A stretch of DNA of 60,474 nucleotides from Desulfomonilaceae bacterium (GCA_031082285.1 JAVHLK010000022.1:1-60474); one strand, 5' to 3'; shown: positions 16,098-32,596, numbered from the stretch's first letter. Numbers and translations: made by a program. Notes: generated from the sequence alone by a model not told the origin.

Positions 16098-16153
16098 GCT
16101 CGAAGCCAACCCTTCCTGCCAAAAGGACACCCCCCAGGGTGCCGTCAAGGAAT

Positions 16154-16180
16154 ACCGGCACGGAAGCCGGCGCTTCCAAA
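16154..16180. repeat. Dispersed GC-rich repeat, family C
   Basis: TACCGGCACGGAAGCCGGCG followed by CTTCCAA, in the nifA-nifH space. Nearly the same sequence (with GGAGGCC and CTACC) occurs at 23402-23431 between nifE and nifN, where it forms one arm of a large palindrome. Confidence 0.55.
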
Positions 16181-16342
16181 TTAACTGTGGCCGCCTTCGT
16201 AGTGTGACCGTGATCGTGCCCTTCGCTTCGCCCCTCCCCGTGCATCCCTGCCTTCAGTAGACCGGCATCTCGCCGGATCGCCATCGTCAGGGCCGGTTCG
16301 TGCCGTTGCGCGCAGCGGCCCCAAAGCCCTTTTCGCGAACCA

Positions 16343-16385
16343 TCACATTTTCATTAATGTGAGCTCTTGTGATACAAAAATGTGA
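16343..16385 (+). promoter_or_regulatory. Candidate upstream activator sites for nifH promoter
   Basis: Cluster of TGTGA half-sites at 16358-16362, 16368-16372 and 16381-16385, with an inverted TCACA at 16343-16347. This gives the palindrome TCACA-N10-TGTGA (core ACA-N10-TGT) and a nested TTGTGATACAA at 16367-16377. It lies about 115-155 bases upstream of the -24/-12 promoter, where NifA enhancer sites usually sit. The textbook NifA site TGT-N10-ACA was not found, so the identity of the bound activator is inferred. Confidence 0.5.
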
Positions 16386-16494
16386 ACTTCTCCCCGACCA
16401 GCCCACACTCCTTCCGGTAACGCAGCGGCAGCCGCTACATAATTTGCTCGTGATTGCCCTCACATACACGTCCATCTCACCTTTGTTCCACCGG

Positions 16495-16512
16495 TTGGCA
16501 CACGTGTTGCTC
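16495..16512 (+). promoter_or_regulatory. Sigma-54 (-24/-12) promoter of the nif operon
   Basis: TTGGCACACGTGTTGCTC matches the sigma-54 consensus TGGCAC-N5-TTGCW exactly, with GG at -24 (16497-16498) and GC at -12 (16509-16510). Transcription should start near 16522, about 29 bases before the nifH ATG. Confidence 0.93.
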
Positions 16513-16538
16513 TTAAGGTGCATATCAAATTCCCGTGA

Positions 16539-17375
<837 letters not shown>

Positions 17376-17422
17376 GCGAGACGGTCTATGGACATTGAAA
17401 TTTGCGAAGAGAGGTAACGCAC

Positions 17423-17779
17423 ATGTTGATGATCAGATCCATCGTGAGGCCCACAAAGGTGGATGACGTACTGACGGCGTTGATGGAAGCCGGCTTTCCT
17501 GCAGTGACCAAAATATCGGTGGTAGGCCGCGGCAAGCAGCGAGGGATCAAGATCGGCGAAATCAGCTACGACGAAATCCCCAAAGAATTGCTCATCACCG
17601 TGGTACCGGATGCAGACAAGGATTTTGTCGTCAAGACCGTCATAAAGGCTGCTCGCAGCGGCGACAAAGGCGCGTTCGGCGACGGCAAGATCTTCATCAG
17701 TCCTGTGGAAGAGGTCTACACCATCAGTTCCGGCATCAAGGAGACGGGGTCCGGGGAAATCCAAGAGGTGAAGATATGA
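17423..17779 (+). CDS. nifI1: NifI1, PII-like nitrogenase regulator
   Basis: PII-superfamily protein of 118 residues that, with NifI2, binds and inhibits the MoFe protein when nitrogen is sufficient, with 2-oxoglutarate relieving inhibition (known from methanogens). It begins MLMIRSIVRPTKVDDVLTAL, the PII first strand and helix. It has a T-loop region different from GlnB and the strand pair LLITVVPDADKDFVVKTVIKAA, then GDGKIFISPVEEVYTI. GAGAGG with an eight-base spacer selects the ATG at 17423 over an upstream in-frame start. It overlaps nifI2 by ATGA. Confidence 0.95.
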   Translation: MLMIRSIVRPTKVDDVLTALMEAGFPAVTKISVVGRGKQRGIKIGEISYDEIPKELLITVVPDADKDFVVKTVIKAARSGDKGAFGDGKIFISPVEEVYTISSGIKETGSGEIQEVKI

Positions 17780-18156
17780 GAGAAATCATGGCGGTCATCC
17801 GCATGAACATGATGAACAAGACCAAGCTCGCGCTCTCTGAGGGAGGCATTTGCTCCATGACGGCTAAGGACGTGCTCGGGCGAGGCAAGGGCCTGGTTGA
17901 CATGAGCCTCATGAAAGGCGCGGAAAAGGGCTATGAAGAGGCAATCGCGCAGCTTGGGCAGAGCCGGCGCCTCATTCCCAAACGCCTGCTCATCCTCGTT
18001 GTCCCGGAGAAGCTTGTAGACACGACAGTGAAAACCATTATCAAAGTGAACCAAACCGGAAAGTCCGGTGACGGCAAGATCTTCGTCATGCCGGTAGTCG
18101 ATTCGTTCAGCGTGCGTACCGGCGAAGGCGGTGAGAAGGTCCTGGATGGAGCGTAA
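17776..18156 (+). CDS. nifI2: NifI2, PII-like nitrogenase regulator
   Basis: Second PII-like subunit, 126 residues, expected to form a heterooligomer with NifI1. It opens with MREIMAVIRMNMMNKTKLAL, then has the KLVDTTVKTIIKVNQTGKSGDGKIFVMPV segment typical of the PII fold, where the B and C loops bind ATP/2-oxoglutarate. The longer T-loop region (about residues 35-70) fits NifI2. The start is in the ATGA overlap with nifI1, so the two are translationally coupled. The nifHI1I2DK order is characteristic of anaerobes (Deltaproteobacteria, Clostridia, methanogens). Confidence 0.95.
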   Translation: MREIMAVIRMNMMNKTKLALSEGGICSMTAKDVLGRGKGLVDMSLMKGAEKGYEEAIAQLGQSRRLIPKRLLILVVPEKLVDTTVKTIIKVNQTGKSGDGKIFVMPVVDSFSVRTGEGGEKVLDGA

Positions 18157-18206
18157 GCCACCACCACGAGGCACGGCAAACGGTTGTGTGCCGACGGGAG
18201 AACGCC

Positions 18207-19862
18207 ATGAAGGCAGTGAAAGAAGAACCTAATGCGCTCGGGATCGAGACCGTCGATCCTGATGAAGTGAAACAGACGCTCTTGGCCAAGGTCCCGACCA
18301 AGGTGGCTCGCAAACGAGCGAAGCAAATCGTCATAAACAAGACCGGCGAGGACCCTGAGGTGCCGGAGATCGGGGCCAACACGCGGACCATCCCGGGCAT
18401 CATAACTCAGCGCGGGTGCACGTATGCGGGCTGCAAAGGCGTGATCCTGGGCCCGACACGAGACATTGTAAACATCACCCACGGTCCCATCGGATGCGGC
18501 TTCTACAGCTGGCTGACGCGGCGCAATCAGACCCGGCCGGCGGGGCCGGATGATTACAATTTCATGACCTACTGCTTTTCCACGGACATGCAGGAAAGCG
18601 ACATCGTGTTCGGCGGCGAAAAGAAGCTGCGGACGGCAATCCAGGAAGCGTACGACTTGTTCAAGCCCAAGGCGATCAGCATATTCTCGACCTGCCCGGT
18701 GGGACTTATCGGCGACGACGTGCATTCCGTCGCACGGGAGATGAAGGAAAAACTCGGGATCAACGTCTTCGCGTTCAGTTGCGAGGGTTACAAAGGCGTC
18801 AGCCAATCCGCGGGACACCACATCGCCAACAACGGCATCTTCACCCACGTCGTGGGGCTCGATGACGCGGTCAAGGGCGGCAAGTACAGGATAAACCTTC
18901 TCGGGGAGTACAACATCGGCGGTGACGCGTTTGAAATCGACCGCATCCTGGAGGATTGCGGGATCACCGTTGTGTCGACTTTCAGCGGCAATTCCAGCTA
19001 CGACGAGTTTGCCAACGCCCACACCGCGGACCTCAACACCATCATGTGCCACCGTTCCATCAACTATGTGGCTGAAATGATGGAAACCAAGTTCGGCATC
19101 CCATGGATCAAGATCAACTTCCTGGGCGCCAAGGCATGCGCAAAATCACTTCGCAAGATCGCACGGTACTTCGAGGATGCGGAACTCATTGAACGTGTCG
19201 AAGAGGTCATTGCACGGGAATTGCCCGAGGTCGAGAAAGTGGCCGAGGAAGTGAGCCGGCGGTGCGAAGGAAAGCGGGCAATGCTCTTTGTGGGCGGTTC
19301 CCGAGCCCACCATTACCAGGAACTTTTCGCTGAAATAGGGATGAAAACCATATGCGCGGGCTACGAATTCGCTCACCGGGATGACTACGAGGGACGGAAG
19401 GTCCTCCCCTTTCTCAAGGTCGATGCGGACAGCCGCAACATCGAGGAGCTGGAAGTACATGCCGATCCGGAACGGTACAGGCCGCGCAAGACCGCGGAAG
19501 ATATGGAAAGACTTCAGTCCGAGGGATTCCGCTTCAAGGACTACGACGGCATGATGCCGGAGATGATGAAGAACACCCTGGTAATCGATGACATCAGTCA
19601 GCATGAAACGGAGAAGCTGCTCGAGATTTACAAACCGGACGTTTTCTGCGCAGGCATCAAAGAGAAATTTGCAGTCCAGAAGTCCGGCATCCCGATGAAG
19701 CAGCTCCACAGTTACGATTCCGGCGGCCCTTACGCCGGCTTCAGAGGTGCGGTCAATTTCTACCGAGAGATCGATCGCATGGTCAACAGCAAGGTCTGGA
19801 AATATATCAAGGCGCCCTGGCAGGAAAGCCCCGAACTTACGGCCAGATACGCCTGCGATTGA
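18207..19862 (+). CDS. nifD: Nitrogenase molybdenum-iron protein alpha chain
   Basis: Catalytic alpha subunit holding FeMo-cofactor. It has 551 residues from the ATG at 18207, preceded by GGGAGA; an in-frame GTG 21 bases upstream is less likely. P-cluster cysteine contexts are visible: GCTYAGCKG, HGPIGCGFYSW and FSTCPVGLIGDD. Cofactor ligands are seen as Cys in NTIMCHRSINYV and His in KQLHSYDSGGPYAGFRG. The PYAGFRGAVNFYREIDRM tail and overall length resemble the clostridial/methanogen-like and deltaproteobacterial NifD group rather than the Azotobacter type. No anfG/vnfG-type delta subunit gene is present, supporting a Mo enzyme. Confidence 0.97.
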   Translation: MKAVKEEPNALGIETVDPDEVKQTLLAKVPTKVARKRAKQIVINKTGEDPEVPEIGANTRTIPGIITQRGCTYAGCKGVILGPTRDIVNITHGPIGCGFYSWLTRRNQTRPAGPDDYNFMTYCFSTDMQESDIVFGGEKKLRTAIQEAYDLFKPKAISIFSTCPVGLIGDDVHSVAREMKEKLGINVFAFSCEGYKGVSQSAGHHIANNGIFTHVVGLDDAVKGGKYRINLLGEYNIGGDAFEIDRILEDCGITVVSTFSGNSSYDEFANAHTADLNTIMCHRSINYVAEMMETKFGIPWIKINFLGAKACAKSLRKIARYFEDAELIERVEEVIARELPEVEKVAEEVSRRCEGKRAMLFVGGSRAHHYQELFAEIGMKTICAGYEFAHRDDYEGRKVLPFLKVDADSRNIEELEVHADPERYRPRKTAEDMERLQSEGFRFKDYDGMMPEMMKNTLVIDDISQHETEKLLEIYKPDVFCAGIKEKFAVQKSGIPMKQLHSYDSGGPYAGFRGAVNFYREIDRMVNSKVWKYIKAPWQESPELTARYACD

Positions 19863-19885
19863 GCCGTTGAGGAAGGAACGGACAC

Positions 19886-21262
19886 ATGCTGCTCCGACAT
19901 ACACCGAAAGAAATCACCGATCGCAAGATCTTGACCATTAACCCGGCCAAGACATGCCAGCCCATCGGGGCCATGTATGCGGCTCTGGGCATTCACAACT
20001 GCCTGCCTCACAGTCACGGGTCTCAGGGATGCTGCGCGTACCACCGGAGCACCTTGACGCGGCACTACAAGGAACCGGTCATGGCCGCGACCAGTTCGTT
20101 CACCGAAGGTGCGTCCGTATTCGGCGGACAGGCCAACCTGGTCCAGGCGATCGACAATATTTTCACCATATATGAACCCGATGTGATCGCGGTACACACG
20201 ACCTGTTTGTCGGAAACCATCGGGGACGATATTCCGCAGATTGCCCGAAAGGCTGAAGCGGACGGCAAAATTCCCCCGGGCAAGTATGTCATTCACGTCA
20301 ATACTCCCAGTTATGTGGGGACCCATGTGACCGGGTTTGCCGGCATGACAAAGGCCATGGTGGATTATTTTGCGGAGTCCGCCGGGAAGAAGATCAATCA
20401 GATAAACATCATTCCCGGCTATGTGGAACCGTCCGACATGGAGGAAATCCGACGTATCGCCGAGGTCATGGGCGTCCGAACCGTCCTGTTTCCCGATACC
20501 TCCGGGGTGCTCAATCGGCCTCAGACGGGCAAGTACGACATGTTCCCCCCCGGCGGCGTTACCGTAGAAGCCTTGAAGAGCACCGGCAACAGTCAAGCCA
20601 CGATCGCATTGGGGCAGTTGGCTTCGGGGCCGGCCGCACGAGCCCTGGACAGTAAGTGCAAGGTACCGTGCGAAATCCTTGACCTGCCCATCGGTCTCAA
20701 GGCTACCGACAGGTTTGTGGATACTCTCAGGAGAACCGCGGGAACGGACGTACCCGACACCATCAACATCGAACGCGGCCGGCTTTTGGACATCATCACC
20801 GATATGCACCAGTACTTCTACGGGAAGAAGGTTGCCCTCGCCGGCGATCCCGATCAACTTATCGCGCTGACCGAGTTCCTGGTGTCCATCGACATGTGGC
20901 CGATTCACATCGTGTCCGGGACTGTGGACAAGGACTTCCAGGCTCGCATCAAGGAAATCACGCAGTACGTGCCGCATCCCGTGAACGTGGGCATACCCGG
21001 GGACCTGTTCCTGCTTCATCAATGGATTAAGAACGAACCAGTGGACCTGCTCGTGGGCAACACGTACATGAAGTACATTTCCCGCGATGAAGACATCCCG
21101 TTGGTACGCTTCGGCTTCCCCGTACTGGACCGCATCGGCCACGGCTATTTCCCGACGGTCGGTTACCGTGGCGGCATGCGCTTGCTGGAAAAGATCCTGG
21201 ATGTCCTCCTGGACCGGCAGGACCGGGATGCGAAAGAGGAGAGTTTCGAACTGGTCATGTAG
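19886..21262 (+). CDS. nifK: Nitrogenase molybdenum-iron protein beta chain
   Basis: Beta subunit completing the P-cluster. It has 458 residues, shorter than the roughly 520 of Azotobacter NifK because it lacks the N-terminal extension, as in other anaerobe-type enzymes. P-cluster cysteine contexts: PAKTCQPIGAMYA, GSQGCCAYHRS and HTTCLSETIGDD. VIHVNTPSYVGTHVTGFAGM is the usual NifK core. It starts 23 bases after nifD with a GGAAGGAA-type ribosome-binding site. Confidence 0.97.
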   Translation: MLLRHTPKEITDRKILTINPAKTCQPIGAMYAALGIHNCLPHSHGSQGCCAYHRSTLTRHYKEPVMAATSSFTEGASVFGGQANLVQAIDNIFTIYEPDVIAVHTTCLSETIGDDIPQIARKAEADGKIPPGKYVIHVNTPSYVGTHVTGFAGMTKAMVDYFAESAGKKINQINIIPGYVEPSDMEEIRRIAEVMGVRTVLFPDTSGVLNRPQTGKYDMFPPGGVTVEALKSTGNSQATIALGQLASGPAARALDSKCKVPCEILDLPIGLKATDRFVDTLRRTAGTDVPDTINIERGRLLDIITDMHQYFYGKKVALAGDPDQLIALTEFLVSIDMWPIHIVSGTVDKDFQARIKEITQYVPHPVNVGIPGDLFLLHQWIKNEPVDLLVGNTYMKYISRDEDIPLVRFGFPVLDRIGHGYFPTVGYRGGMRLLEKILDVLLDRQDRDAKEESFELVM

Positions 21263-21426
21263 GAGAGGCACACAACTCGGCTCCTCGTGAATGGATGGTG
21301 CAAGGCGCGGGAACCGCGACGAAAATCGGAGACCCGCGGCAACGAAGCGGCCGGCGATGCATGTGCCGCTCCCTCAACTCAAGAATGGAGCCTTCAAAGG
21401 GCTGCCTGACAAAAAGGAAGAGCGTG

Positions 21427-21729
21427 ATGCTGAAACCCGATCATCATATACTTGTATGTGCAAGTTTTCGCGGTACTGAACCCAAGGGAAAATGTATCAA
21501 GAAGGATTCGCTTCAACTGATCCCCTACATTGAAGAAGAAGTGCTGGAGCGCGGCCTGAACGTGATGGTGTCCAGCACCGGATGCCTGAAACTCTGCGAG
21601 GATGGCCCCGTGGTGGTCGTCTATCCCGAAGCCTATTGGTACAAGGGCGTGACGAATGAAGAAGCGGTGGATGAGATCCTGGATTCCTTGGAAAACGGCG
21701 GCCCTGCTGAGAAGTATCTGCTGACGTAG
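21427..21729 (+). CDS. Thioredoxin-like [2Fe-2S] ferredoxin in the nif operon
   Basis: One-hundred-residue protein of the Shethna-type/Clostridium pasteurianum 2Fe-2S ferredoxin family, which has a thioredoxin fold. Cluster cysteines are visible as C-x10-C in CASFRGTEPKGKC and C-x3-C in GCLKLCEDGPVVVVYPE. The GPVVVVYPEAYWYKGVT ending is typical. In diazotrophs such proteins are linked to nitrogenase electron transfer or protection. The ATG at 21427 follows AAGGAAG; the frame is open about 130 bases further upstream without family similarity. The stop codon abuts a family B repeat. Confidence 0.9.
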   Translation: MLKPDHHILVCASFRGTEPKGKCIKKDSLQLIPYIEEEVLERGLNVMVSSTGCLKLCEDGPVVVVYPEAYWYKGVTNEEAVDEILDSLENGGPAEKYLLT

Positions 21730-21796
21730 TATGCCGTTTCATAAGTACGGTCGCATTTACATGCACCGTCTCCCCGGCCCAGGCCGGGACCCAGAT
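21728..21796. repeat. Dispersed repeat, family B
   Basis: Begins at the stop codon of the ferredoxin gene with AGTATGCCGTTTCATAAGTA, continues CGGTCGCATTTACATGCACC and ends in GC-rich CCCCGGCCCAGGCCGGGACC. A nearly identical copy begins at the stop codon of the last gene in the window (60387), and a diverged core is at 13630. Confidence 0.75.
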
Positions 21797-21827
21797 CGTA
21801 GGACGGGCACAGCCCGCCCTACGATCT
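21793..21827. terminator. Strong hairpin between ferredoxin gene and nifE
   Basis: Arms AGATCGTAGGACGGGC (21793-21808) and GCCCGCCCTACGATCT (21812-21827) around a three-base loop, with one A/C mismatch. No T run follows on either strand, so it may be an mRNA-stabilising or attenuating structure, or a repeat, rather than a true terminator. The module GATCGTAGGGCGG recurs at about 23440. Confidence 0.45.
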
Positions 21828-21876
21828 GATGCAACTATCCATTCCATCACCTCTTCGGACACCGGGAGATCGACGA

Positions 21877-23292
21877 ATGTCTGCAACGGTATTTGATGAA
21901 CGTCGGAACCAGATCCACCGCAAGGGTGACACGCCGTTTGACCTGGCCTGCGACAAGGACAGTCTTGCCGGTGCAGTGAGCCAGCGGGCGTGCGTGTTCT
22001 GCGGATCGCGGGTCGTACTCTACCCCATAGCCGATGCGCTCCATCTTGTGCACGGCCCTATAGGATGTGCCGCATATACATGGGACATCCGAGGAGCACT
22101 CTCTTCAGGACCCGAACTTCACCGGCTCAGCTTCTCCACCGACCTCCGGGAACGTGACATCATCTTCGGCGGAGAGGACAAGCTGTACCGTGCTTTGATC
22201 GAACTTATCGACCGCCACGCCCCGCAAGCGGCTTTTGTGTACTCAACATGCATCGTGGGCATTATCGGCGACGACCTGGAAGGGGTCAGTCGACGAGTCG
22301 AAAAGGAAAAGGGCATACCGGTTATCCCCGTGCAATCGGAAGGTTTCAAAGGAAACAAAAGAGCCGGCTACCATGCGGCATGCCGGGCAATGTTCCGCTT
22401 GACGGGTTCCGGAGGCACATCCGCGATCTCGGCGAAGAGCATCAACATTCTGGGGGATTTCAACCTGGCCGGTGAACTCTGGATCATACGACGATACTAC
22501 GAACGCATGGGCATTGAAGTCGTGGCCAACGTCACCGGTGACGGGAGGGTCGCGGATCTGCAGCGGGCTCATGGGGCCGCACTCAATGTGGTTCAGTGCT
22601 CGGGTTCCACCATGGATCTCGCGAAGATGATGCAGGCCGAGTACGGCACTCCGTTTCTTCGAGTCTCATATTTCGGTGTCGAGGACATGGCGGAATCACT
22701 CTACACCGTCGCGCGGTTCTTCGAGGATCTCGACCCGGAAATCGTGTCCCGCACGCGGGAACTCGTCAAGGAGGAGCTGGAGTCTCTCTATCCGGAATTG
22801 GAAAAGTATCGCTCCGCACTTGCCGGGAAGAAAGCCGCCATTTACGTGGGCGGGGCGTTCAAGGCCTTTTCACTGATCAAGGCGTTCCGGCTGGTGGGCA
22901 TGGACGTCGTGCTGGTGGGATCCCAGACGGGGACCAAAGAAGATTACCAGGAACTGTACGAGATAACCGACAGAGGTACCGTCATCGTGGACGACACGAA
23001 TCCCTTGGAGCTCTCGAGTTTTCTCCAGGATCGGCACGTGGATGTGTTCGTCGGAGGCGTCAAAGAACGCCCCATAGCGTACAAGCTCGGCGTCGGATTC
23101 TGCGATCACAACCACGAACGAAAGACCGTGCTGGCCGGATTTCAAGGGATGCTCAACTTCGCCAAAGAGGTCCATTCATCGGTCATGAGCCCGGTGTGGC
23201 GCTTCGTGCCGAGGCACACCACGAACAGCACTCCCGGGTCGGAAGAACCGGCGTCGGTCCCTGAACGGCTGACCGCTGCGGGCGGCGCCTGA
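21877..23292 (+). CDS. nifE: FeMo-cofactor scaffold protein NifE
   Basis: Paralogue of NifD that, with NifN, forms the scaffold on which the NifB cofactor precursor matures to FeMo-co. It has 471 residues from the ATG at 21877 (GGGAG, eight-base spacer), with the conserved cysteine contexts QRACVFCGSRVV, HGPIGCAAYTWD and YSTCIVGIIGDD. SFSTDLRERDIIFGGEDKL and PVQSEGFKGNKRAGYHAAC are standard NifE blocks. A repeat-containing gap of about 150 bases precedes the gene, and no second sigma-54 promoter was seen, so transcription probably continues from nifH. Confidence 0.96.
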   Translation: MSATVFDERRNQIHRKGDTPFDLACDKDSLAGAVSQRACVFCGSRVVLYPIADALHLVHGPIGCAAYTWDIRGALSSGPELHRLSFSTDLRERDIIFGGEDKLYRALIELIDRHAPQAAFVYSTCIVGIIGDDLEGVSRRVEKEKGIPVIPVQSEGFKGNKRAGYHAACRAMFRLTGSGGTSAISAKSINILGDFNLAGELWIIRRYYERMGIEVVANVTGDGRVADLQRAHGAALNVVQCSGSTMDLAKMMQAEYGTPFLRVSYFGVEDMAESLYTVARFFEDLDPEIVSRTRELVKEELESLYPELEKYRSALAGKKAAIYVGGAFKAFSLIKAFRLVGMDVVLVGSQTGTKEDYQELYEITDRGTVIVDDTNPLELSSFLQDRHVDVFVGGVKERPIAYKLGVGFCDHNHERKTVLAGFQGMLNFAKEVHSSVMSPVWRFVPRHTTNSTPGSEEPASVPERLTAAGGA

Positions 23293-23367
23293 CCGCGTGA
23301 CGGGTTTCGTAGGGCGCGCCCCCGTGCCTGCCCTTGCCGAAGAGGGTCTCGGCATCTCTTCTCAGAT

Positions 23368-23429
23368 GGTAGCGTCCCGGCGTCCCTGCCGGGCGCGAAG
23401 AGAGTACCGGCACGGAGGCCGGCGCTACC
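23368..23429. repeat. REP-like large palindrome, family C
   Basis: Between nifE and nifN. Left arm GGTAGCGTCCCGGCGTCCCT continuing GCCGG; right arm CCGGCACGGAGGCCGGCGCT ending ACC. The arms are inverse to each other apart from a few mismatches and a two-base length difference. The right arm is nearly identical to 16154-16180 in front of nifH. The element type resembles REP sequences that end in GCCGGC-rich arms. Confidence 0.65.
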
Positions 23430-23511
23430 AAAGCTGATCGTAGGGCGGTCTGAGTTTCTCGAATGCGGCCACGCATACGCGGGGCGCTCGCCCGCTTGCA
23501 AAGGAAATACC

Positions 23512-24882
23512 ATGGGAAAACCAGCCAAATCATACGTGTCGACCACGAATGCATGCAAGCTCTGTAAGCCGCTGGGTGCGTGCCTTGCCTTCAAGGGCAT
23601 TGAAGGCGCCGTACCCTATCTCCACGGCTCGCAAGGGTGCGCGACCTATATGAGACGCTACATAATCAGTCATTTTCGAGAGCCGATGGACATAGCTTCA
23701 TCTTCCCTCGGGGAGAAGCACGCGATTTACGGGGGAGGACCGAACCTGAAGCTTGGACTCAAGAACGTCATCACCAAGTATGATTGCCGGCTCGTCGGAA
23801 TTGCCACGACCTGTTTGACCGAAACAATCGGTGACGACACGCCCATGTACCTCAATGAGTTCAGGCGCGAGTTCAAAGATCTGCTCGATTCGCACGATAG
23901 TCCCGAGCTGGTAAGCGTTTCCACGCCGAGCTACTCGGGAACGCACATGGAAGGTTTCCACGAGGCGTTGCGGGCCGTGGTGGATCAAATCTCCAGGAGC
24001 GGGCCGCGCCATTCACGGATCACCATCATGCCGGGGTTCGTCTCGCCGGCCGATACCCGGTACCTGAAAGAGATAATCGGAGATTTCGGAATGTCCGCCA
24101 CGATCTTCCCGGACATCTCCACTTCGCTGGACGGCGTTGCCGCGGTTGTCTATGAGAAGCTTGCTTCCGGAGGCGTTCCTCTGTCCGAGATCCGGGAAAT
24201 GGGGGCCTCGCCTGCGAGCCTGGAGTTCGGCCGTACATTGGATAAGGCACATACGGCGGCGGGATTACTGGAGAACGATTACCACATCCCGTGCTACAGC
24301 TTGGGCACGCCCGTCGGACTCCGAGAGACGGATCGCTTCTTCGAGACTCTGAGCAGTCTTTCACACTCACCTATCCCGGAGAAGCATGAGATGGAGAGGG
24401 GCCGGTTGATCGACGCGTATGTGGATGCCCACAAGTACTCGTTCGGAGTGCGGGCCGTGGTGTACGGCGAAGAGGATCTGGTGGTCGGTCTCACCTCGTT
24501 CCTCGCGGAGATAGGCGTAAAGGTCGTCCTGTGCGCTTCGGGAGGAGAGAGCGGCCGGCTGAAGGAAGCCGTGGGGAGCGTAACCACAGATCTGCTTTCG
24601 GAGCCGCCAATTGTGGTGGAGGGCGTGGATTTCCATGAAATAGCCGAGATCGCCGAGCGTCTCCACCCTGATATCCTCATCGGAAATTCCAAGGGATACC
24701 ATCTGGCTCGCCGCTGGGGGGTTCCGTTCGTTCGGGTGGGGTTTCCCATACACGACCGGTTCGGAGGCCAACGAATCCTCCACCTTGGGTACAGAGGCGC
24801 TCAAAGCCTGCTCGACGGAATTGTCAATGCCGTTATCGAGACAAGACAGGAAGCGTCCGATATAGGCTACACCTATTACTAG
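23512..24882 (+). CDS. nifN: FeMo-cofactor scaffold protein NifN
   Basis: Paralogue of NifK and partner of NifE in the cofactor scaffold, 456 residues. Visible blocks: NACKLCKPLGACLAFKGI, LHGSQGCATYMRRY and GIATTCLTETIGDDT, followed by VSTPSYSGTHMEGFHEALRA. The second half keeps the Rossmann-type repeats of the family, ending LGYRGAQSLLDGIVNAVIE. The ATG follows AAAGGAAA. Only 14 bases separate the stop from nifB. Confidence 0.95.
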   Translation: MGKPAKSYVSTTNACKLCKPLGACLAFKGIEGAVPYLHGSQGCATYMRRYIISHFREPMDIASSSLGEKHAIYGGGPNLKLGLKNVITKYDCRLVGIATTCLTETIGDDTPMYLNEFRREFKDLLDSHDSPELVSVSTPSYSGTHMEGFHEALRAVVDQISRSGPRHSRITIMPGFVSPADTRYLKEIIGDFGMSATIFPDISTSLDGVAAVVYEKLASGGVPLSEIREMGASPASLEFGRTLDKAHTAAGLLENDYHIPCYSLGTPVGLRETDRFFETLSSLSHSPIPEKHEMERGRLIDAYVDAHKYSFGVRAVVYGEEDLVVGLTSFLAEIGVKVVLCASGGESGRLKEAVGSVTTDLLSEPPIVVEGVDFHEIAEIAERLHPDILIGNSKGYHLARRWGVPFVRVGFPIHDRFGGQRILHLGYRGAQSLLDGIVNAVIETRQEASDIGYTYY

Positions 24883-24896
24883 AAGGACGAACGGCC

Positions 24897-26168
24897 ATGA
24901 TAAATCGACTGAACATACACAATCACCCTTGCTTTAATGGTGAGGTCAAGGGGAAATACGGACGAGTTCATCTGCCGGTGGCGCCTCAATGCAACATAAA
25001 ATGCAACTACTGCAATCGCCGATATGATTGTGTCAACGAGAGCAGGCCCGGCGTATCCAGCGCAGTTCTCTCCCCGGCTCGGGCGGTGAACTACCTCGAA
25101 GAAGTCCTCGCAAAGGCTCCCGAGATTACCGTGGCCGGCATCGCGGGCCCGGGCGATGCCTTCGCGGAGCCGGAACGAACATTGGAGACCCTCCGTGAGG
25201 TGCGGAAACGATTTCCCGATCTGCTCCTCTGTGTCGCGTCCAATGGATTGAACGCTGTTCAGTACGTTGACGAGCTCGAGGAATTGAGTGTTTCTCATGT
25301 GACGATCACGGTCAATGCCGTGGATCCGGATTTCGGAGCACTGATCTACGGCTGGGTGCGGTTCGGTAAGAAGGTATACCGGAAAAGACAAGCCGCGGAG
25401 ATGCTGCTTAATCGGCAACTTGCCGCCATCAGCGCCCTCAAGCGAAAAGGCATCGTCGTCAAGGTAAACACGATCGTGGTTCCGGGCATCAACGACCATC
25501 ACGTGGTGGACGTGGCAAAGATGATGGCCGACCTCGGAGTTGATATTCAGAACTGCATGGCTATGTATCCCAATGCGGATTCACCGTTTTCGGCGATTCC
25601 CGAACCTTCGCCGAAACTCATGTCCGAGATTCAAGCGAAAGCCGGCCGGATCATGCCTCAAATGATGCACTGCACACGGTGCAGAGCCGACGCGGTGGGA
25701 CTCCTGGGAGTCGACGCATCCGCCGAGTACCGCGGGTGTCTTGCCCGCAACGCGGAAGGGGCCGTTTCTTGCGCTCCCGACAAACCGTATGTCGCGGTCG
25801 CGACGCTGGAGGGAGTGCTGGTCAACCAGCACCTCGGGCATGCATACAAATTCCAGATTTGGGGCAAGTCGGATCAGGGGTTTGAACTGATGGAAGAGAG
25901 AGAAGCACCGCCGGTGGGTGACGGCGACAACCGATGGCTTCGTCTGGCGAGCACGTTGGGGGATTGCAGAGCCGTTCTGGTGAGCGCGATCGGCGCAGCC
26001 CCCAGACGATTCCTTCTGCAACACAACATCGTACCCGTTGAAATGAGCGGGTTCATCCGGCAGGGCTTGGAGACGGTCTACCAGGGCGGCGACATTGATT
26101 CGCTCAAGGGCAGGCGTAAGGGAATAGCCAAGGGCGGGTGTTGCGGCGCGGGAGAGGGTTGCGGTTGA
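24897..26168 (+). CDS. nifB: NifB, radical SAM FeMo-cofactor core synthase with C-terminal NifX-like domain
   Basis: Builds NifB-co, the [8Fe-9S-C] core, from two [4Fe-4S] clusters using S-adenosylmethionine. It has 423 residues: radical SAM motif CNIKCNYC (about residues 33-40) with the GIAGPGDAF block, and further cysteines in HCTRCRADAVG. From about residue 300 a dinitrogenase-cofactor-binding (NifX/NafY-like) domain follows, VAVATLEGVLVNQHLGHAYKF. The tail GGCCGAGEGCG is cysteine-rich. AGAAGGA precedes the ATG. It is the last gene of the operon and converges on the RiPP locus. Confidence 0.97.
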   Translation: MINRLNIHNHPCFNGEVKGKYGRVHLPVAPQCNIKCNYCNRRYDCVNESRPGVSSAVLSPARAVNYLEEVLAKAPEITVAGIAGPGDAFAEPERTLETLREVRKRFPDLLLCVASNGLNAVQYVDELEELSVSHVTITVNAVDPDFGALIYGWVRFGKKVYRKRQAAEMLLNRQLAAISALKRKGIVVKVNTIVVPGINDHHVVDVAKMMADLGVDIQNCMAMYPNADSPFSAIPEPSPKLMSEIQAKAGRIMPQMMHCTRCRADAVGLLGVDASAEYRGCLARNAEGAVSCAPDKPYVAVATLEGVLVNQHLGHAYKFQIWGKSDQGFELMEEREAPPVGDGDNRWLRLASTLGDCRAVLVSAIGAAPRRFLLQHNIVPVEMSGFIRQGLETVYQGGDIDSLKGRRKGIAKGGCCGAGEGCG

Positions 26169-26177
26169 TCCTTCGTG

Positions 26178-26206
26178 ACCGGGTCGCCGATGGGGCGTCA
26201 CCCGGT
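26178..26206. terminator. Hairpin between the convergent nifB and radical SAM genes
   Basis: ACCGGGT at 26178-26184 pairs with ACCCGGT at 26200-26206 across a 15-base loop, and covers the stop codon of the minus-strand gene. No T run is present, so a role in ending both transcripts is only a guess. Confidence 0.3.
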
Positions 26207-28003
26207 AAGACGACGTCCGAAGTGCAGGCTCGATCCATGAGACCCGAATACGGCCGGAAGCTTCATGTAATCCACCGCACCGTCGGGTCTCTTTCTGAAA
26301 AGCACGGCGCAGGGTTCATAAATTATGTCTCGCGGCAGGTGCCGGTACCCGTCGGCCCTGACCTCCTTTATGAACGCGGTCACATCGAACGAAAAACTCT
26401 CCACGTAAGTGGATTCCGCGCCTTCACCGCTCAGTTTGGGTCTGTTGAACGCCAGGTCGAATCTCATCAGTTCATGAATATAGTGGCTGGAGTGCCCGAG
26501 CAGGTTCACGCGCCTCGCGATGAATTGAGAAACGGACATCAATGAGTGTGAAGTTGCTATGTGATTGAAAATATTTCCTTCCGGAAGGTCAAGATCTTCG
26601 ATTCGATCCAAGAGGCTCTCCGGATACCCGAGTTCCGGGTCCTTAAGAAGAACAAAGGCGGTGTATCTCAGCGACACCAAGTTCATCATCAAGTGAGCGA
26701 CCCGGACAAAGTGATCCCTGTCGACATGCTCCGGAACATAGTGGTACAGAGTAGAGAACACCTGGGGATACCGCTTGGCAAACTCAGTGTCCACCAGAGT
26801 GGCCGGGGAGACGGAAAAGTTGGAAAGATGCTCGTCCAAGGCCAATCGGTTCCCATATTTCTCGAAAAGGGGACTCCCCGGGAAGGGGACGAGAAGCCAA
26901 GTGAGTATGTCGGAGATCCCCCGTTCGCCGGAGAAATAGACCTCCAGCATCAAACGCATGGTCTGCGCCAGGTCGGCCGATTCTTCCTGAGGGAACCCGA
27001 TGATGAAACCGCTGCCCGCAATAATTCCCGCGTCACACACCTTACGGACGACCGCGGGTGCGCGTTCCAGATTCAGACGTTTGTTCAGGAGCTTCTGCAT
27101 GCGCGGAGAGCCGGTCTCGATCCCGAAATAGATGAAATTGCAGCCTGCTCGTGCCATACAGTCCACCATTTCATCGTCTATGGTGTCGATCCTGGAAAAG
27201 CACTCCCATCGGATGTTCATGTGTTCTGCGATAAGCGCATTGCAGAACGTCATGAGCCACGTGCGGTTCAAGGTAAGCAGGTCGTGTTCTATGCGGAGAT
27301 AGTCCTTTCCATAGTCTTCGACCAGACTCTTGATGAGCTTGATGACGCTCTCCACCGAACGTTGCCTGAACCTGCCCCCGCCCATGCTGTTGGTCACGCA
27401 ATAGCCGCATCTGAAAGGGCACCCTCGTCCCACGTCCACTCCGATACGCTCAATCTTATCCAGTGACGGTATCAACGAGTAGTCCGGCAAAGGAAGGCGG
27501 TCCAGGTCGGGAACCGGGCCCTGGTCGGGAGTCCTGATGATATTCCCTCGGTGCATGAAGGTCACGCCCGGCACTTTGCGGAGTTTGTCCGGATCGTGAA
27601 TAGATCTCACGATGTCGCCGATCGTATGGTCGCACTCGCCCCTGGCAACGACATGCACTTGCGGAAAGGCCTGTACCGTCTCCCGATCCGTATGGGTGGC
27701 CTGTACTCCGCCGAAAAGGATTTTGGTATGCGGGGCCAACTCCCGAACGATTCGTGCACATTTCGTCAGGTCCAAGTAGTAGTTGCACCAGGTCGAGAAT
27801 CCAACCACATCTGGTCGGCGGGCTACCACGGCTTCCGGGATTTCTCGGTACGTGGCATCGGAACACACCGCGTTGACATCGAGGATCTCCACGTCGATGC
27901 CGTCGTCTCGAAGTACCGTGGCGAGAGAGAGAACACCCAGCGGCACGTACGATTTCGGGCGGCCGGCCTCCAGAACAGGGTTTGGGAGGAGCAACACTTT
28001 CAT
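26198..28003 (-). CDS. B12-binding-domain radical SAM enzyme of the lasso-type RiPP locus
   Basis: A 601-residue protein. Residues about 1-140 form a cobalamin-binding-like Rossmann domain (MKVLLLPNPVLEAGRPKSYV, then KILFGGVQATHT). Residues about 185-400 form the radical SAM barrel with GRGCPFRCGYC (C-x3-C-x2-C) binding the [4Fe-4S] cluster. The last 200 residues are helical and unassigned. The cobalamin-ligating D-x-H-x2-G motif is not evident, as in many class B members. Its ATG overlaps the kinase stop by one base (TAATG), so it is very likely co-translated with the lasso genes and acts on the peptide, perhaps by methylation or C-C chemistry at an unactivated carbon. The reaction is inference; a housekeeping role cannot be excluded. 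Confidence 0.88.
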   Translation of the reverse strand: MKVLLLPNPVLEAGRPKSYVPLGVLSLATVLRDDGIDVEILDVNAVCSDATYREIPEAVVARRPDVVGFSTWCNYYLDLTKCARIVRELAPHTKILFGGVQATHTDRETVQAFPQVHVVARGECDHTIGDIVRSIHDPDKLRKVPGVTFMHRGNIIRTPDQGPVPDLDRLPLPDYSLIPSLDKIERIGVDVGRGCPFRCGYCVTNSMGGGRFRQRSVESVIKLIKSLVEDYGKDYLRIEHDLLTLNRTWLMTFCNALIAEHMNIRWECFSRIDTIDDEMVDCMARAGCNFIYFGIETGSPRMQKLLNKRLNLERAPAVVRKVCDAGIIAGSGFIIGFPQEESADLAQTMRLMLEVYFSGERGISDILTWLLVPFPGSPLFEKYGNRLALDEHLSNFSVSPATLVDTEFAKRYPQVFSTLYHYVPEHVDRDHFVRVAHLMMNLVSLRYTAFVLLKDPELGYPESLLDRIEDLDLPEGNIFNHIATSHSLMSVSQFIARRVNLLGHSSHYIHELMRFDLAFNRPKLSGEGAESTYVESFSFDVTAFIKEVRADGYRHLPRDIIYEPCAVLFRKRPDGAVDYMKLPAVFGSHGSSLHFGRRLTG

Positions 28004-28908
28004 TATGGATTCCGCGCGTCCCCTGACTCTTTCAAAATACCGTGTTCGATCATCCCCGCGATTTCGGCAACCAGGGATACGTCACGCGGTCTGGTCAACC
28101 GCAGTACGGGAACCTGGGTCGCAAGTCGTGCACACTGGAGGAAATATGACGAAGGCCTGGCATCGTGCATGAGGCGTATCCAATACGAGTTCTTCACGAG
28201 TTCGTACACGGATTCATGACCGCTGACCGGCGCAATGCCGAGATCGGGGCCTTCATGGAGCAGATAGATCCGAGCCAGAGGCACCGGCCGGCTCGGAAAA
28301 CCCTCATCTCTTCGGAATGTAAGCTTTTCTTCCTCAACGTCCTGCGCAGAAGGCTCTCCCAATTTCTTGCCAAAGTATTCTGCGGCATCCGGAAGCAGGT
28401 GAAGCCCCGGGTACCCGGGAAACGCTACAGGCATTGATCCGGAGTTGCGTACGACCGTCACGTCATCGGCCACCAGCGCATGCCCCCTGGAAACGAGCGC
28501 GGCGGCCGTGGTTGATTTTCCTGATCCACTATCCCCCACGAATGCCACAGCCTGACCGCCGACTTGTACGCAGCTCGCGTGCAGCGTCAAATAGCCTCTC
28601 TGGTGAAGCAACACCGACAGGCCCGGCCCTTGAGCCATAACGGGAATGACTTGGTCGTCCATGCCTTCATCAGGTTCACCCACGATTTCCCTGCCTTGGA
28701 CGACCAGACACGCACCGAGGCCGCGGTAGAGGAAAAAGGCCCTGTCTCCCTTGAATTGAAGAGACAACCGGGCGTCGGGAGGAACAGGTTCCAACGGCTC
28801 GGCTCGGCCGAACCTCATCACCACATCGTGAGCTGCATCGCTCTCTATAAGGTCGGGAAGCGGAACGTCGCACCGAATGCCCAAACCATATGCCGAGTAG
28901 GTGTACAC
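28003..28908 (-). CDS. HPr-kinase-like lasso peptide kinase
   Basis: Belongs to the HprK-related kinases found in lasso peptide clusters (paeninodin type), which phosphorylate a serine at the peptide C-terminus. The GTG at 28908 gives 301 residues and lies four bases after GGAG and ten bases after the precursor stop; an upstream ATG (28959) would overlap the precursor gene. Visible: LTLHASCVQVGGQAVAF, P-loop GDSGSGKST (about 125-133) and the catalytic acidic pair in ALVADDVTVV (about 144-152). The N-terminal 90 residues are a divergent domain. In the predicted core Ser59 is the penultimate residue, a plausible target. Position between precursor and radical SAM gene supports a tailoring role. 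Confidence 0.88.
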   Translation of the reverse strand: MYTYSAYGLGIRCDVPLPDLIESDAAHDVVMRFGRAEPLEPVPPDARLSLQFKGDRAFFLYRGLGACLVVQGREIVGEPDEGMDDQVIPVMAQGPGLSVLLHQRGYLTLHASCVQVGGQAVAFVGDSGSGKSTTAAALVSRGHALVADDVTVVRNSGSMPVAFPGYPGLHLLPDAAEYFGKKLGEPSAQDVEEEKLTFRRDEGFPSRPVPLARIYLLHEGPDLGIAPVSGHESVYELVKNSYWIRLMHDARPSSYFLQCARLATQVPVLRLTRPRDVSLVAEIAGMIEHGILKESGDARNP

Positions 28909-28918
28909 TGAACTCCGT

Positions 28919-29101
28919 CTATACGGATCGCCGGGTCGGATTGACAATGGTTCCGCCATCCTCCTGGCCCGTCCCCTTCTGTTCTTCAGTGATCTTTTCC
29001 ACACTTCCGTGAACGACGAGTTCGGGTGTCTCATAGGGTTTCTTGGCGTTGCCCTCTACGCCGGCTTTCGGTACACCATTCTCTTCCTTTGGTCTCGCCA
29101 T
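28919..29101 (-). CDS. Lasso-type RiPP precursor peptide
   Basis: Sixty residues starting at an ATG eight bases after GAGAGG. The leader carries the lasso recognition pattern Y-x2-P-x-L-x3-G-x5-T exactly: Y23, P26, L28, G32, T38 in KPYETPELVVHGSVEKITE. With Thr at the penultimate leader position, the core would be residues 40-60, EQKGTGQEDGGTIVNPTRRS plus V. That puts Glu at position 1, and Glu8 or Asp9 as ring acceptors. Position 1 is normally Gly, Ala, Ser or Cys, so either the core is unusual or cleavage differs; a start at Gly43 would leave acceptors at positions 5-6, too early for a usual 7-9 residue ring. It lies between the cyclase and kinase genes. Confidence 0.85.
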   Translation of the reverse strand: MARPKEENGVPKAGVEGNAKKPYETPELVVHGSVEKITEEQKGTGQEDGGTIVNPTRRSV

Positions 29102-29197
29102 CGTCGATCCTCTCCCGCGGTACTGGCCGGACCCGCTCACGCTCGACCGGATGACGCGCGGCATCGTTCCCGTCAATCAGGGTGCGTACGGAATCCT

Positions 29198-31093
29198 TTA
29201 CGGCTGCAGGTCCGCCCTGCTCAACCACAGTCCCAGAGACAATGCGAACCGGAGGAACGACGGATCCCGCTTCAATGGATTCGAGATGTACTCCGCATAG
29301 GATCTGTTCACGGCGGCAGGGTCCACGTACCTCTCGATTGCTCTGAGACTGTCTTGAAGCAAACCTTCCAACCGGTCTCGATTCATGCCGAGAATAGCAT
29401 AATTGAAACTCGGGCGGAAGTCGATCTTACCCGCGCGCCACTGTATCTCGGCGGGTAGGATTCCGTCCATCCCCCTGCGCAATACCATTCGGGTCCATCC
29501 TTTGCAGATCTTCTGAGAATGAGGGAGAGCCGTACAAAACTCGGCCAGACGGCGGTCAAAGAACGGATGCCTGGGCTCAATGCCGCCCCTCGCGGCAATC
29601 TTGTTCATAGACTCCAACGTCTGGGTAAGGCCTCCCCAGGTCAAGCTGCGGCAGTGGTCCTCTCTGGCATTGTGCACCGGTTTCAGGTAGAAGCCGTTGA
29701 AGTGCCGATACCGCTCGGCGAGCCCCATGCGTTCGGCAAAGTCCGGGGATATGAGCGCGTCCTTGGCCCAGGGCCTATCGCCATACCCGGTCAGTCGACG
29801 CCACGTCTTCCGCACAATCGCGGGCGTCAGCGGTCTAATGGCCTTGCGCCACAGAAGATCCATGCAGGACCGGCTCTCCCTGGACGACACCGCGAGCGCC
29901 TCGCGCACAAGGGTTATGAATCGGCCTCTGTGGGCAAGTTCGGCAAGATACGCGTAGCCGTGTGAAACCGTGTTGTCACCGTCGAACCCGTCGAGTACAA
30001 CCCGAATCCCCGATTCGTGCAAGCGATTCCTCGCTGAGATTGCAAAGGAGGTCGGTGCGTCGAGCGGATCGTCGTGAAGGTACGGACCGTCCAGGTCGAA
30101 ATAGGGCAGCGGTACGGCCGAGTCGGCCTCGAGATACACTGGCGTGACCGAGCCTTGGGCGAGTACCGCCTCAATATACTCTCGTTCGTCGCACTCTTTG
30201 ACGTGATCGTAAATCAGAGAAAGTGTGGTGAGGGGAGTGTTGGATAAGCCGGCAGGCAAGTCTCTTGCCACGCACGTCACGCTGGACGAATCGAGCCCTC
30301 CGCTCAGTGTGGTCGCGACGGGATGTGAACTTCGCAGACGGCATCGAACGGATTCCACGAAGAGATCCCGAAAAGCCTCGGCATACTCCATGTCCGAGTC
30401 CATGCGCAACTCAATTGAAGGATCTAAAGACCAGTACCGACGCATCCTCTCTCCCTTGCACTTCACCAGCAGCGTGTGTCCCGGAGGCAGGCGCAAAAGG
30501 TCGCGGTAGAATGAGAGAGTCTGATCGTCCGGCATGCCGATGAGATAATCCGCGACCGCGAGCTCGTTGAGTTTCCGAGGCACCCACTCAAGGCCCAGGA
30601 GCGGCCTGATTTCCGAAGCAAAGGAAAAGACGTGGTGACTGGAATGATAGTAAAACGGCCGGACTCCGAACGGGTCACGGCAACAGAACAGCTCGCGCCG
30701 TGCACGATCCCAGACGCAGTAGGCAAAATCTCCGACGAGCTCCGCTGGGCTGCGGTCACCCCACTTCGCGTACGCTCGTACGATGATCTCGCCGTCACTT
30801 ATCTCGGCGACGGACTTTGCTCCGAATCCCAGTGTATCGATCAGTTCTTCACGGTTGTCGAGACGCGCGTCCGCGGTGAGAACGTATCGCCCGGTAACGT
30901 CCACTTCCGGGTTCCGCTCCACACTCGATTCCGGTGTGGTGTTGAGCATAAGGAGGCCCAATCCCAGCGAGCCTTCGATCCACATACGCGAGCCGTCCGG
31001 CCCCCGGTAGTGCATGGTCTGAAGCATTCGTCCCAGGAATCCGCCGGCGACGGGGCCGCCGTCACGACGGAATATGCCTGCGATTCCGCTCAC
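29198..31093 (-). CDS. Asparagine-synthetase-like lasso macrolactam synthetase (C protein)
   Basis: A 631-residue homologue of AsnB that, in lasso clusters, adenylates the Glu/Asp side chain and closes the isopeptide ring. The N-terminal glutaminase-like domain begins MSGIAGIFRRDG: the catalytic Cys2 of true asparagine synthetases is Ser, so glutamine-dependent ammonia release should be lost. The ATP-pyrophosphatase loop SGGLDSSSV (about 264-272) is intact. HYRGPDGSRMW and FCCRDPFGVRPFYY are family blocks. Its ATG overlaps the end of the B2 gene by four bases. The precursor gene follows 96 bases downstream. Context identifies it as the cyclase rather than a metabolic asparagine synthetase. 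Confidence 0.93.
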   Translation of the reverse strand: MSGIAGIFRRDGGPVAGGFLGRMLQTMHYRGPDGSRMWIEGSLGLGLLMLNTTPESSVERNPEVDVTGRYVLTADARLDNREELIDTLGFGAKSVAEISDGEIIVRAYAKWGDRSPAELVGDFAYCVWDRARRELFCCRDPFGVRPFYYHSSHHVFSFASEIRPLLGLEWVPRKLNELAVADYLIGMPDDQTLSFYRDLLRLPPGHTLLVKCKGERMRRYWSLDPSIELRMDSDMEYAEAFRDLFVESVRCRLRSSHPVATTLSGGLDSSSVTCVARDLPAGLSNTPLTTLSLIYDHVKECDEREYIEAVLAQGSVTPVYLEADSAVPLPYFDLDGPYLHDDPLDAPTSFAISARNRLHESGIRVVLDGFDGDNTVSHGYAYLAELAHRGRFITLVREALAVSSRESRSCMDLLWRKAIRPLTPAIVRKTWRRLTGYGDRPWAKDALISPDFAERMGLAERYRHFNGFYLKPVHNAREDHCRSLTWGGLTQTLESMNKIAARGGIEPRHPFFDRRLAEFCTALPHSQKICKGWTRMVLRRGMDGILPAEIQWRAGKIDFRPSFNYAILGMNRDRLEGLLQDSLRAIERYVDPAAVNRSYAEYISNPLKRDPSFLRFALSLGLWLSRADLQP

Positions 31094-31482
31094 TCTTGTG
31101 CTCCGTCAAAGATGGGCAACGGAGTGTACCGGTCATGCTCGGGGGATCCTATGAGAATGGTTCCGCGATCCTCCAACCAGGCATGCGCGGCCAATCGACC
31201 GGACTCGTCTTTGGCAACTCCGATTCGCAGCAACGAAGGATGACCGGCCATGGCGAGCAGCAATTTTGTCGTCAGCGCAACGGCCAGGCAATTGCCCAGC
31301 ACGGGAACGCGTCCTACAACGGACGATACCGCCCACACGATCCGATCCGGTGACCGGTGAGTGCCCGGAAGCCGGCGAGGGAGTACCGGGGCAAGCTTTC
31401 TCGATGCGGCAAGCACGGTCCGGAGAGAAGCCAATCTCAGGGAGACGGTGAGACAGGCCGCCAGACTTGCAGCGAGAATCAC
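31090..31482 (-). CDS. Lasso leader peptidase B2 (transglutaminase-like cysteine protease)
   Basis: Removes the leader at the site presented by B1. The family core is visible near the C-terminus: Cys65 in VLGNCLAVALTTKLLLAMAG and His100 in RLAAHAWLEDRG form the catalytic pair, followed by an acidic residue. A hydrophobic N-terminal segment (ILAASLAACLTVSLRLA) is common in B2 proteins. The start is uncertain: GTG at 31482 gives 130 residues without a large overlap, while the open frame continues through ATG 31632, which would overlap B1 by 125 bases; similarity suggests the true N-terminus lies slightly upstream of 31482. It overlaps the cyclase gene by ATGA. Confidence 0.85.
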   Translation of the reverse strand: MILAASLAACLTVSLRLASLRTVLAASRKLAPVLPRRLPGTHRSPDRIVWAVSSVVGRVPVLGNCLAVALTTKLLLAMAGHPSLLRIGVAKDESGRLAAHAWLEDRGTILIGSPEHDRYTPLPIFDGAQE

Positions 31483-31507
31483 CAGAAGTTTGTCTTCTGC
31501 CGAGAGA

Positions 31508-31837
31508 TCACGAAACCTGCTCAGGATGCTCGTTGCACACTTCGACCAATGCCGCGTCGATGAGCCGCGTAAGGAATCCTCGCAGGTCTTCGCAGCATCT
31601 ATCCGGCTGTACGTCGTATTCGGCACAGACATCTTCCCGTATTCGGCGAACCGTCCTCGGCTCGCTGATAAGGCCCCAGACGTGGGCGCCGACCTGGTTC
31701 AATCCATAGTAGACGCCGGTGTCAAGATTCAGAATGGCCACTTCGCCCCCCACCTCTGTGGAGACTTGATTCTCAGCGGCCACCACCACCGTATCACATG
31801 ATATGGCTATCCCATCGGAATTCTGAAACTTGTCCAT
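31508..31837 (-). CDS. PqqD-like leader-binding protein B1
   Basis: A RiPP recognition element of 109 residues that would bind the precursor's Y-x2-P-x-L leader and hand it to the B2 protease. It follows the PqqD pattern: VSTEVGGEVAILNLDTGVYYGLNQVGAHVWGLISEPRTVRRI, then a helical C-terminal part (CCEDLRGFLTRLIDAALVEV). GAGGTGA precedes two overlapping starts, GTG 31840 and ATG 31837; the ATG is chosen. First gene of the RiPP operon, with a candidate promoter directly upstream. Confidence 0.92.
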   Translation of the reverse strand: MDKFQNSDGIAISCDTVVVAAENQVSTEVGGEVAILNLDTGVYYGLNQVGAHVWGLISEPRTVRRIREDVCAEYDVQPDRCCEDLRGFLTRLIDAALVEVCNEHPEQVS

Positions 31838-32098: not shown

Positions 32099-32596
32099 CT
32101 AGGATACAAGCATATCTTCCAGCTGCGCGAGCGTACCGGCAGGAATGGAATACATCCCTTCGTCCACTTCCAACAATACCCCGTTTCTCACCAGGGCGTT
32201 GAGGTATTTGCTCAAGCTCTTCCTATAATTATCCTTATAGAACTTTCGTGCTTCCTTCATTTCCAACCGAATTTGCTCACGCGTAAAAGCATCCTCCTGC
32301 TTGACGAGCGTGAGACTCGCACACGCGGCGACAACGAGATCTTGACCCGTGGAACATCGCAACGTTTTTGCTATGGTTGCAACGGTCATCGGTAAGGGTT
32401 GCCTCTCGGGCACGGCGGGCACCGCTTCTTCCTCAGCGGATTCAGCTTCTTGGTCGAGTTCGACGCGTGGGGGACCTTCTCGGCGAAATGCTTCGCTTGC
32501 AGCGGCCATGTCGGCAACAGCCTTCTTCAGATGGTCTTCGGGACCTTCGTACTCGATCTCCAAGTCCCCCACTTTTATTCGGATCTTGATCTCCAT
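32099..32596 (-). CDS. Protein of unknown function with N-terminal beta-hairpin and possible winged helix
   Basis: A 165-residue protein preceded by AAGGGAGG five bases before the ATG. It begins MEIKIRIKVGDLEIEYEGPE, an amphipathic hairpin seen at the start of many unclassified small prokaryotic proteins. An acidic linker rich in Glu/Ala/Pro follows (about 48-70). The second half, REQIRLEMKEARKFYKDNYRKSLSKYLNALVRNGVLLEV, looks like a winged-helix DNA- or protein-binding domain. No signal peptide. It lies 261 bases upstream of the lasso operon on the same strand; a regulatory role for that operon is possible but unproven. Confidence 0.75.
   Translation of the reverse strand: MEIKIRIKVGDLEIEYEGPEDHLKKAVADMAAASEAFRREGPPRVELDQEAESAEEEAVPAVPERQPLPMTVATIAKTLRCSTGQDLVVAACASLTLVKQEDAFTREQIRLEMKEARKFYKDNYRKSLSKYLNALVRNGVLLEVDEGMYSIPAGTLAQLEDMLVS

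Follow-up and report, generated by a model that had tools for sequence, protein, structure and literature searches.

A lasso-type RiPP operon combining an HprK-like kinase gene with a B12-binding radical SAM gene in a Desulfomonilaceae bacterium

The locus examined here is a lasso-type operon of the kind that makes ribosomally synthesised and post-translationally modified peptides (RiPPs), located at 26198–31837 on the minus strand of a 60,474-nucleotide stretch of Desulfomonilaceae DNA (GCA_031082285.1, JAVHLK010000022.1:1-60474; this whole stretch is referred to as the window). Its nearest described relatives are the paeninodin-type clusters (PadeA/C/K/B1/B2) and the proteobacterial A-B1-B2-C-K clusters, which share with it a split B1/B2, the cyclase C, a YxxP leader and an HprK-like kinase with a His-Lys-Asp-Asp residue set (PMC9266682, PMC5067487). 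They differ in having no radical S-adenosylmethionine (SAM) enzyme, and in that their kinases use a C-terminal Ser, whereas the candidate Ser in the window is penultimate. The LPP family, which combines a RiPP recognition element (RRE), an HprK-like kinase and an archaeal-type signal peptidase (PMC13381572), is similar in its lasso-like RRE and in a kinase acting on a precursor Ser, but has no cyclase, a different leader peptidase, a WxxP leader and no radical SAM enzyme. The SynChlorMet cassette likewise joins radical SAM, PqqD and HprK-like genes, but without the lasso cyclase C. Finally, ApyD (NF050148), a B12-radical SAM β-C-methyltransferase of the aminopyruvatide pathway that produces β-methyl-tyrosine in a RiPP (PMC10635010), is the best curated model for the window enzyme and also tailors a RiPP; however, it methylates Tyr in an MNIO/P450 pathway, while the window core contains no Tyr and the window enzyme no detected RRE.

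Tailoring reactions of lasso peptides listed in a review include phosphorylation, methyl ester or isoaspartate formation, epimerisation and deimination; the literature searched gave no instance of a lasso peptide undergoing radical C-methylation. Nor did that literature, which excluded the main lasso survey (Tietz et al. 2017), describe any lasso cluster with a B12-radical SAM enzyme, in agreement with the statement of an earlier note on this DNA that cobalamin-type radical SAM proteins are not established lasso tailoring enzymes.

We interpret the locus as a lasso operon with two tailoring enzymes, a kinase and a B12-radical SAM enzyme, and put the probability that they act as proposed at roughly 0.55. 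In the pathway that we infer, down to the substrate and reaction of the radical enzyme, the step order, the ring size and the threading, B1 would bind the YxxPxL leader of precursor A and present it to the other enzymes. The kinase and the radical SAM enzyme would both act on the linear precursor, the former phosphorylating the only core Ser, second from the C-terminus, and the latter acting on an unactivated aliphatic carbon of the core, with C-methylation as the likeliest reaction. B2 would then cleave the leader after Thr-Glu, and C would close the ring around the threaded tail by linking the N-terminus thus exposed to the Asp9 (or Glu8) side chain. If true, one of the most stable peptide scaffolds would gain chemistry at unactivated carbons. 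The locus would also allow a test, in a natural setting, of whether one standalone B1 RRE suffices for three enzymes sharing a leader (a protease, a kinase and a radical SAM enzyme), and two orthologous clusters are available for reconstitution. To our knowledge, no lasso peptide has been characterised from Desulfomonilaceae.

Gene content and recurrence of the operon

The operon consists of six intact open reading frames (ORFs), in the transcription order B1, B2, C, precursor A, HprK-like kinase (K) and a radical SAM protein of 601 amino acids. B1 (31508–31837), a PqqD-like RRE and predicted leader binder, matched Pfam PqqD at 1.9e-16 and scored 65 bits against the lasso-specific B1 model NF033536, below its cut-off of 80. 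B2 (31090–31632), a predicted leader peptidase of the transglutaminase-like Cys/His protease type (Transglut_core3 1.7e-20; NF033537 78 bits, cut-off 33), has both its Cys (in GNCL) and its His (in AHAW); its ORF opens inside B1, overlapping it by 125 nt, and the real start may be more 3′ than 31632. C (29198–31093), the Asn-synthetase-like lasso cyclase predicted to form the isopeptide bond, reached 718 bits against NF033535 (cut-off 525) and carries the SGGLDSS ATP motif without the glutaminase N-terminal Cys. The 60-amino acid precursor A (28919–29101) matched NF033521, the NCBIfam model of lasso leaders, above its cut-off (22.1 bits against 19). It is followed by the kinase (28003–28908; Hpr_kinase_C 2.6e-11) and by the radical SAM gene (26198–28003), the product of which has an N-terminal B12-binding domain (6.7e-16) and a radical SAM domain (5.5e-20), both over Pfam gathering scores. 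The Pfam and NCBIfam models thus concur with the gene set proposed in the earlier note, and we regard the lasso and kinase assignments as well founded. No transporter or nucleotidyltransferase gene was present in the window operon, unlike the paeninodin-type and proteobacterial lasso clusters compared, and no B12 riboswitch or other RNA family was detected at gathering score within the window.

Identical six genes in identical order were found on contig C29 (locus L026) of genome G012, which belongs to another genus of Desulfomonilaceae. Global protein identities between the window and G012 were 45% for B1, 38% for B2, 52% for C, 44% for A, 54% for K and 52% for the radical SAM protein (local matches: B1, 52% over 88 amino acids; C, 52% over 631 amino acids; radical SAM protein, 53%). 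Synonymous sites were saturated between the two while the proteins were retained, with ratios of non-synonymous to synonymous change (pN/pS) of 0.40 for the radical SAM gene, 0.39 for the kinase and 0.44 for the cyclase. The flanks of the two clusters shared no syntenic gene, and matched at the sequence level only in a paralogue of the B12-radical SAM gene located far away and in a few short stretches of weak similarity. Because gene order is kept in G012 despite unrelated flanks, the kinase and radical SAM genes travel with the lasso core, and because it recurs in another genus the arrangement is not attributable to chance; judged by this conserved order, the radical SAM gene is part of the lasso cluster. 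G005, a congener of G012, is Desulfomonile tiedjei DSM 6799, and its contig C2 was 100% identical to plasmid NC_018026.1 over the 20 kb compared.

Both stop/start overlaps noted earlier were confirmed by reading the sequence directly: GTGA at 31090–31093 joins the B2 stop to the GTG start of C, and TAATG at 28003 joins the kinase stop to the radical SAM ATG. The description of the radical SAM gene as translationally coupled is therefore apt for the window but not for its G012 orthologue, in which the TAATG overlap is not kept and 20 bases separate the kinase stop from the radical SAM start. It might be supposed that the kinase, or some part of the cluster, is vestigial and that the operon yields a lasso peptide without any modification; with all six genes intact in both genomes, the catalytic residues conserved and the proteins retained although synonymous sites are saturated, this seems very improbable.

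Precursor and kinase

Leaders of the type YxxPxL..G..x5T are common to both precursors, the motif being ...YETPELVVHGSVEKITE in the window and YATPELIMHGSVEKITE in G012. Under the Thr(-2) rule, the predicted cores are EQKGTGQEDGGTIVNPTRRSV and QTTAGPNDDNGMGTYDRYSQ, respectively. Both have acidic residues at core positions 8 and 9 (Glu8 and Asp9 in the window), Asp9 being conserved between them, and a single Ser, penultimate in each case. Calculated monoisotopic masses of the lasso forms are 2210.104 Da for the window core and 2171.881 Da for the G012 core; addition of CH2 would give 2224.120 and 2185.897 Da, addition of HPO3 2290.070 and 2251.848 Da, and both together 2304.086 and 2265.863 Da, respectively. 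An EQxxxGxxD pattern can be aligned in both cores after a shift of one residue, and we are unsure of the exact core start position. Aromatic residues, Cys and Met are all absent from the window core. As a separate observation, the N-terminal Gln/Glu of the cores (window 28919–29101; L026 4116–4289) could become pyroglutamate, which would rival ring closure.

For the kinase, the most likely start is GTG 28908, immediately past the precursor stop, giving a protein of 301 amino acids, and G012 has a GTG at the matching place. A start at 29034 was rejected, as the longer ORF merely traverses the precursor gene in a different frame. The His-Lys-Asp-Asp residues (LHAS, GSGKS, ADD), which form the catalytic set of characterised lasso kinases (PMC9266682), are kept in the window and in G012, and structure matches of the kinase include solved HPr kinases. 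Kinase genes also occur in 11 of 13 further loci of the phylum with B2 and C, in line with the earlier remark that some lasso clusters include them. In lasso and LPP pathways, the residue phosphorylated by HprK-like kinases is a Ser of the precursor (PMC9266682, PMC13381572). A C-terminal core Ser, by which a lasso-tailoring kinase may be recognised, was found in neither core; the penultimate Ser is nevertheless a plausible target, since LppK phosphorylates Ser3 of its own core rather than a C-terminal Ser (PMC13381572). We regard the lone, penultimate Ser of each core as likely to be phosphorylated.

The radical SAM enzyme and the proposed modification

The radical SAM protein carries the CxxxCxxC motif at residues 195–202 (C195, C199, C202). 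ApyD was the best NCBIfam model, with 287 bits for the window protein (residues 21–532) and 310 bits for its G012 orthologue, both short of the equivalog cut-off of 750; BchE came next with 163 bits (window). A survey of 395 genomes of the phylum with the ApyD model found proteins of 206–314 bits in 23 of them. Sixteen of 17 ApyD-like neighbourhoods in other genomes (proteins of 209–270 bits) were without PqqD, B2, C or kinase, and the remaining one had a weak PqqD-like match only. Since proteins away from RiPP genes score alike, the ApyD-model score was rejected as proof of RiPP function, and by itself it does not prove peptide methylation.

Phylogenetic placement was more discriminating. The window and G012 proteins grouped together with support of 100/99, and were joined by a paralogue from the same genome as the window (contig C302; 100/97) and by a planctomycete protein (locus L012; 99/91). 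The paralogue is an ApyD-like B12-radical SAM protein in a second RiPP-like cluster (L027, G000:C302, 2681–10151), which also encodes a SPASM radical SAM protein akin to sactipeptide maturases with an N-terminal PqqD-like stretch, an ABC exporter, a precursor of the NHLP clan and Os1348 type (NF038399 1.4e-8, slightly below cut-off) and a small winged-helix protein with weak likeness to the recognition domain of ApyI. Neighbours of the planctomycete gene include PqqD, SPASM radical SAM and HprK-like genes, so that every examined member of this small clade lies in a RiPP-type locus. A larger, separate sister clade of 11 long proteins has no RiPP genes nearby. The possibility raised in the earlier note that the radical SAM family would be found mostly away from RiPP genes hence holds for the wide family and fails for the small clade containing the window protein. 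Three more radical SAM genes surround the L027 cluster.

These neighbourhoods bear on whether the enzyme serves some other need of the host (a lipid, a cofactor or another RiPP) and merely shares a transcript with an ordinary cluster for a phosphorylated lasso peptide. Twenty-seven matches to the enzyme's superfamily in the genome, and the large sister clade away from RiPP genes, would suit such a role. We nonetheless consider it quite unlikely, given that the last place in the operon is kept in two genera with differing flanks and that the enzyme's own clade is RiPP-linked in every member examined. Radical modification of a lasso peptide is, in our judgement, probable.

As regards chemistry, the B12 and radical SAM domains were predicted with good quality (residues 1–385 mostly above 80), and the best solved folds matching the model were TsrM, AprD4, MgmA, TokK, CysS and OxsB. 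TsrM, MgmA, TokK and CysS are C-methylating enzymes. The composition of the window core, devoid of aromatic residues, Cys and Met, excludes β-methyl-Tyr formation as by ApyD, Trp methylation as by TsrM and aryl cross-links as in the pbs cluster, and the radical target must therefore be an aliphatic carbon. Aliphatic C-methylation would be the likeliest radical chemistry on these grounds. The enzyme could instead act on the lasso precursor other than as a methylase, by C–C or C–heteroatom cross-linking, epimerisation or dehydrogenation. The fold and sequence matches include OxsB and AprD4, which catalyse reactions of other kinds, and cross-linking is within the reach of RiPP-cluster B12-radical SAM enzymes, as in the pbs cluster (PMC12257519); yet the known cross-linking case needs aromatic residues, which the window core lacks, and the majority of the nearest characterised relatives methylate, which makes such an activity unlikely. 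Of the phosphorylated, radically modified, perhaps C-methylated lasso product suggested in the earlier note, the lasso and kinase parts stand, while the C-methylation we infer only, as RiPP B12-radical SAM enzymes also cross-link. Phosphorylation and radical modification in tandem is likewise a proposal.

Several observations weigh against a doubly tailored lasso peptide. Only two clusters with the full six-gene set are known. ApyD scores of 245–270 bits also occur in proteins without nearby RiPP genes, and, with aromatic residues, Cys and Met missing from the window core, none of the characterised B12-radical SAM reactions consulted can be carried over as it stands. The cores begin with Glu or Gln, whereas all nine other lasso precursors found in the phylum start with Gly, Ala, Ser or Val, and known lasso kinases prefer a C-terminal Ser over the penultimate position seen here. 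The predicted structure of the C-terminal ~200 residues of the radical SAM protein is unreliable (predicted local distance difference test, pLDDT, <50), and comparison of its C-terminal 217 amino acids, a region modelled at this low pLDDT, with B1 proteins in hhalign recognised no RRE (probability 0.2%). Leader recognition would therefore depend on B1 or on an uncharacterised domain of the enzyme itself.

Distribution and genomic surroundings

Orthologues of the radical SAM protein were searched for in the 395 phylum genomes (E ≤ 1e-80), all 42 genomes of the class, 343 Planctomycetota genomes and 63 of another class. The only close relatives found were the G012 protein and the own-genome paralogue, the Planctomycetota and other-class searches having been run without a positive control. 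A contig scan revealed no lasso B2 or C beside 14 distant relatives (22–29% identity). Plasmid records contained distant relatives only, and lasso genes were absent from the two neighbourhoods inspected. B2 matches were present in 27 of the 395 genomes, and none of the 13 further loci with B2 and C contained a B12-radical SAM gene, some of the contigs being short. One lasso locus (L078, 10600–12380) has two HprK-like kinase genes in tandem.

Three loci (L063, 8217–11530; L064, 7995–13724; L086, 1317–9274) resemble the window operon in combining B12-radical SAM, PqqD, a B2-like protease and HprK, but lack the cyclase, and possibly represent an undescribed RiPP type. Their B12-radical SAM enzymes fell in other parts of the tree, so that pairings of this kind have more than one origin. 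L064 also encodes a DUF362 protein and an NTP_transf_5 protein, and L063 adjoins a polysaccharide synthesis gene.

Upstream of B1, at 32099–32596 on the minus strand of the window, lies a gene for a 165-amino acid protein with no confident family match, which is absent from the G012 locus. On the other side, a nitrogenase cluster (nifA-like, nifH, nifD, nifK, nifE, nifN-like and nifB; 14118–26168), not shared with the G012 locus, directly adjoins the lasso operon. Its nifD carries an apparent insertion, and the cluster converges on the operon, the nifB-like and radical SAM stops being 29 bases apart.

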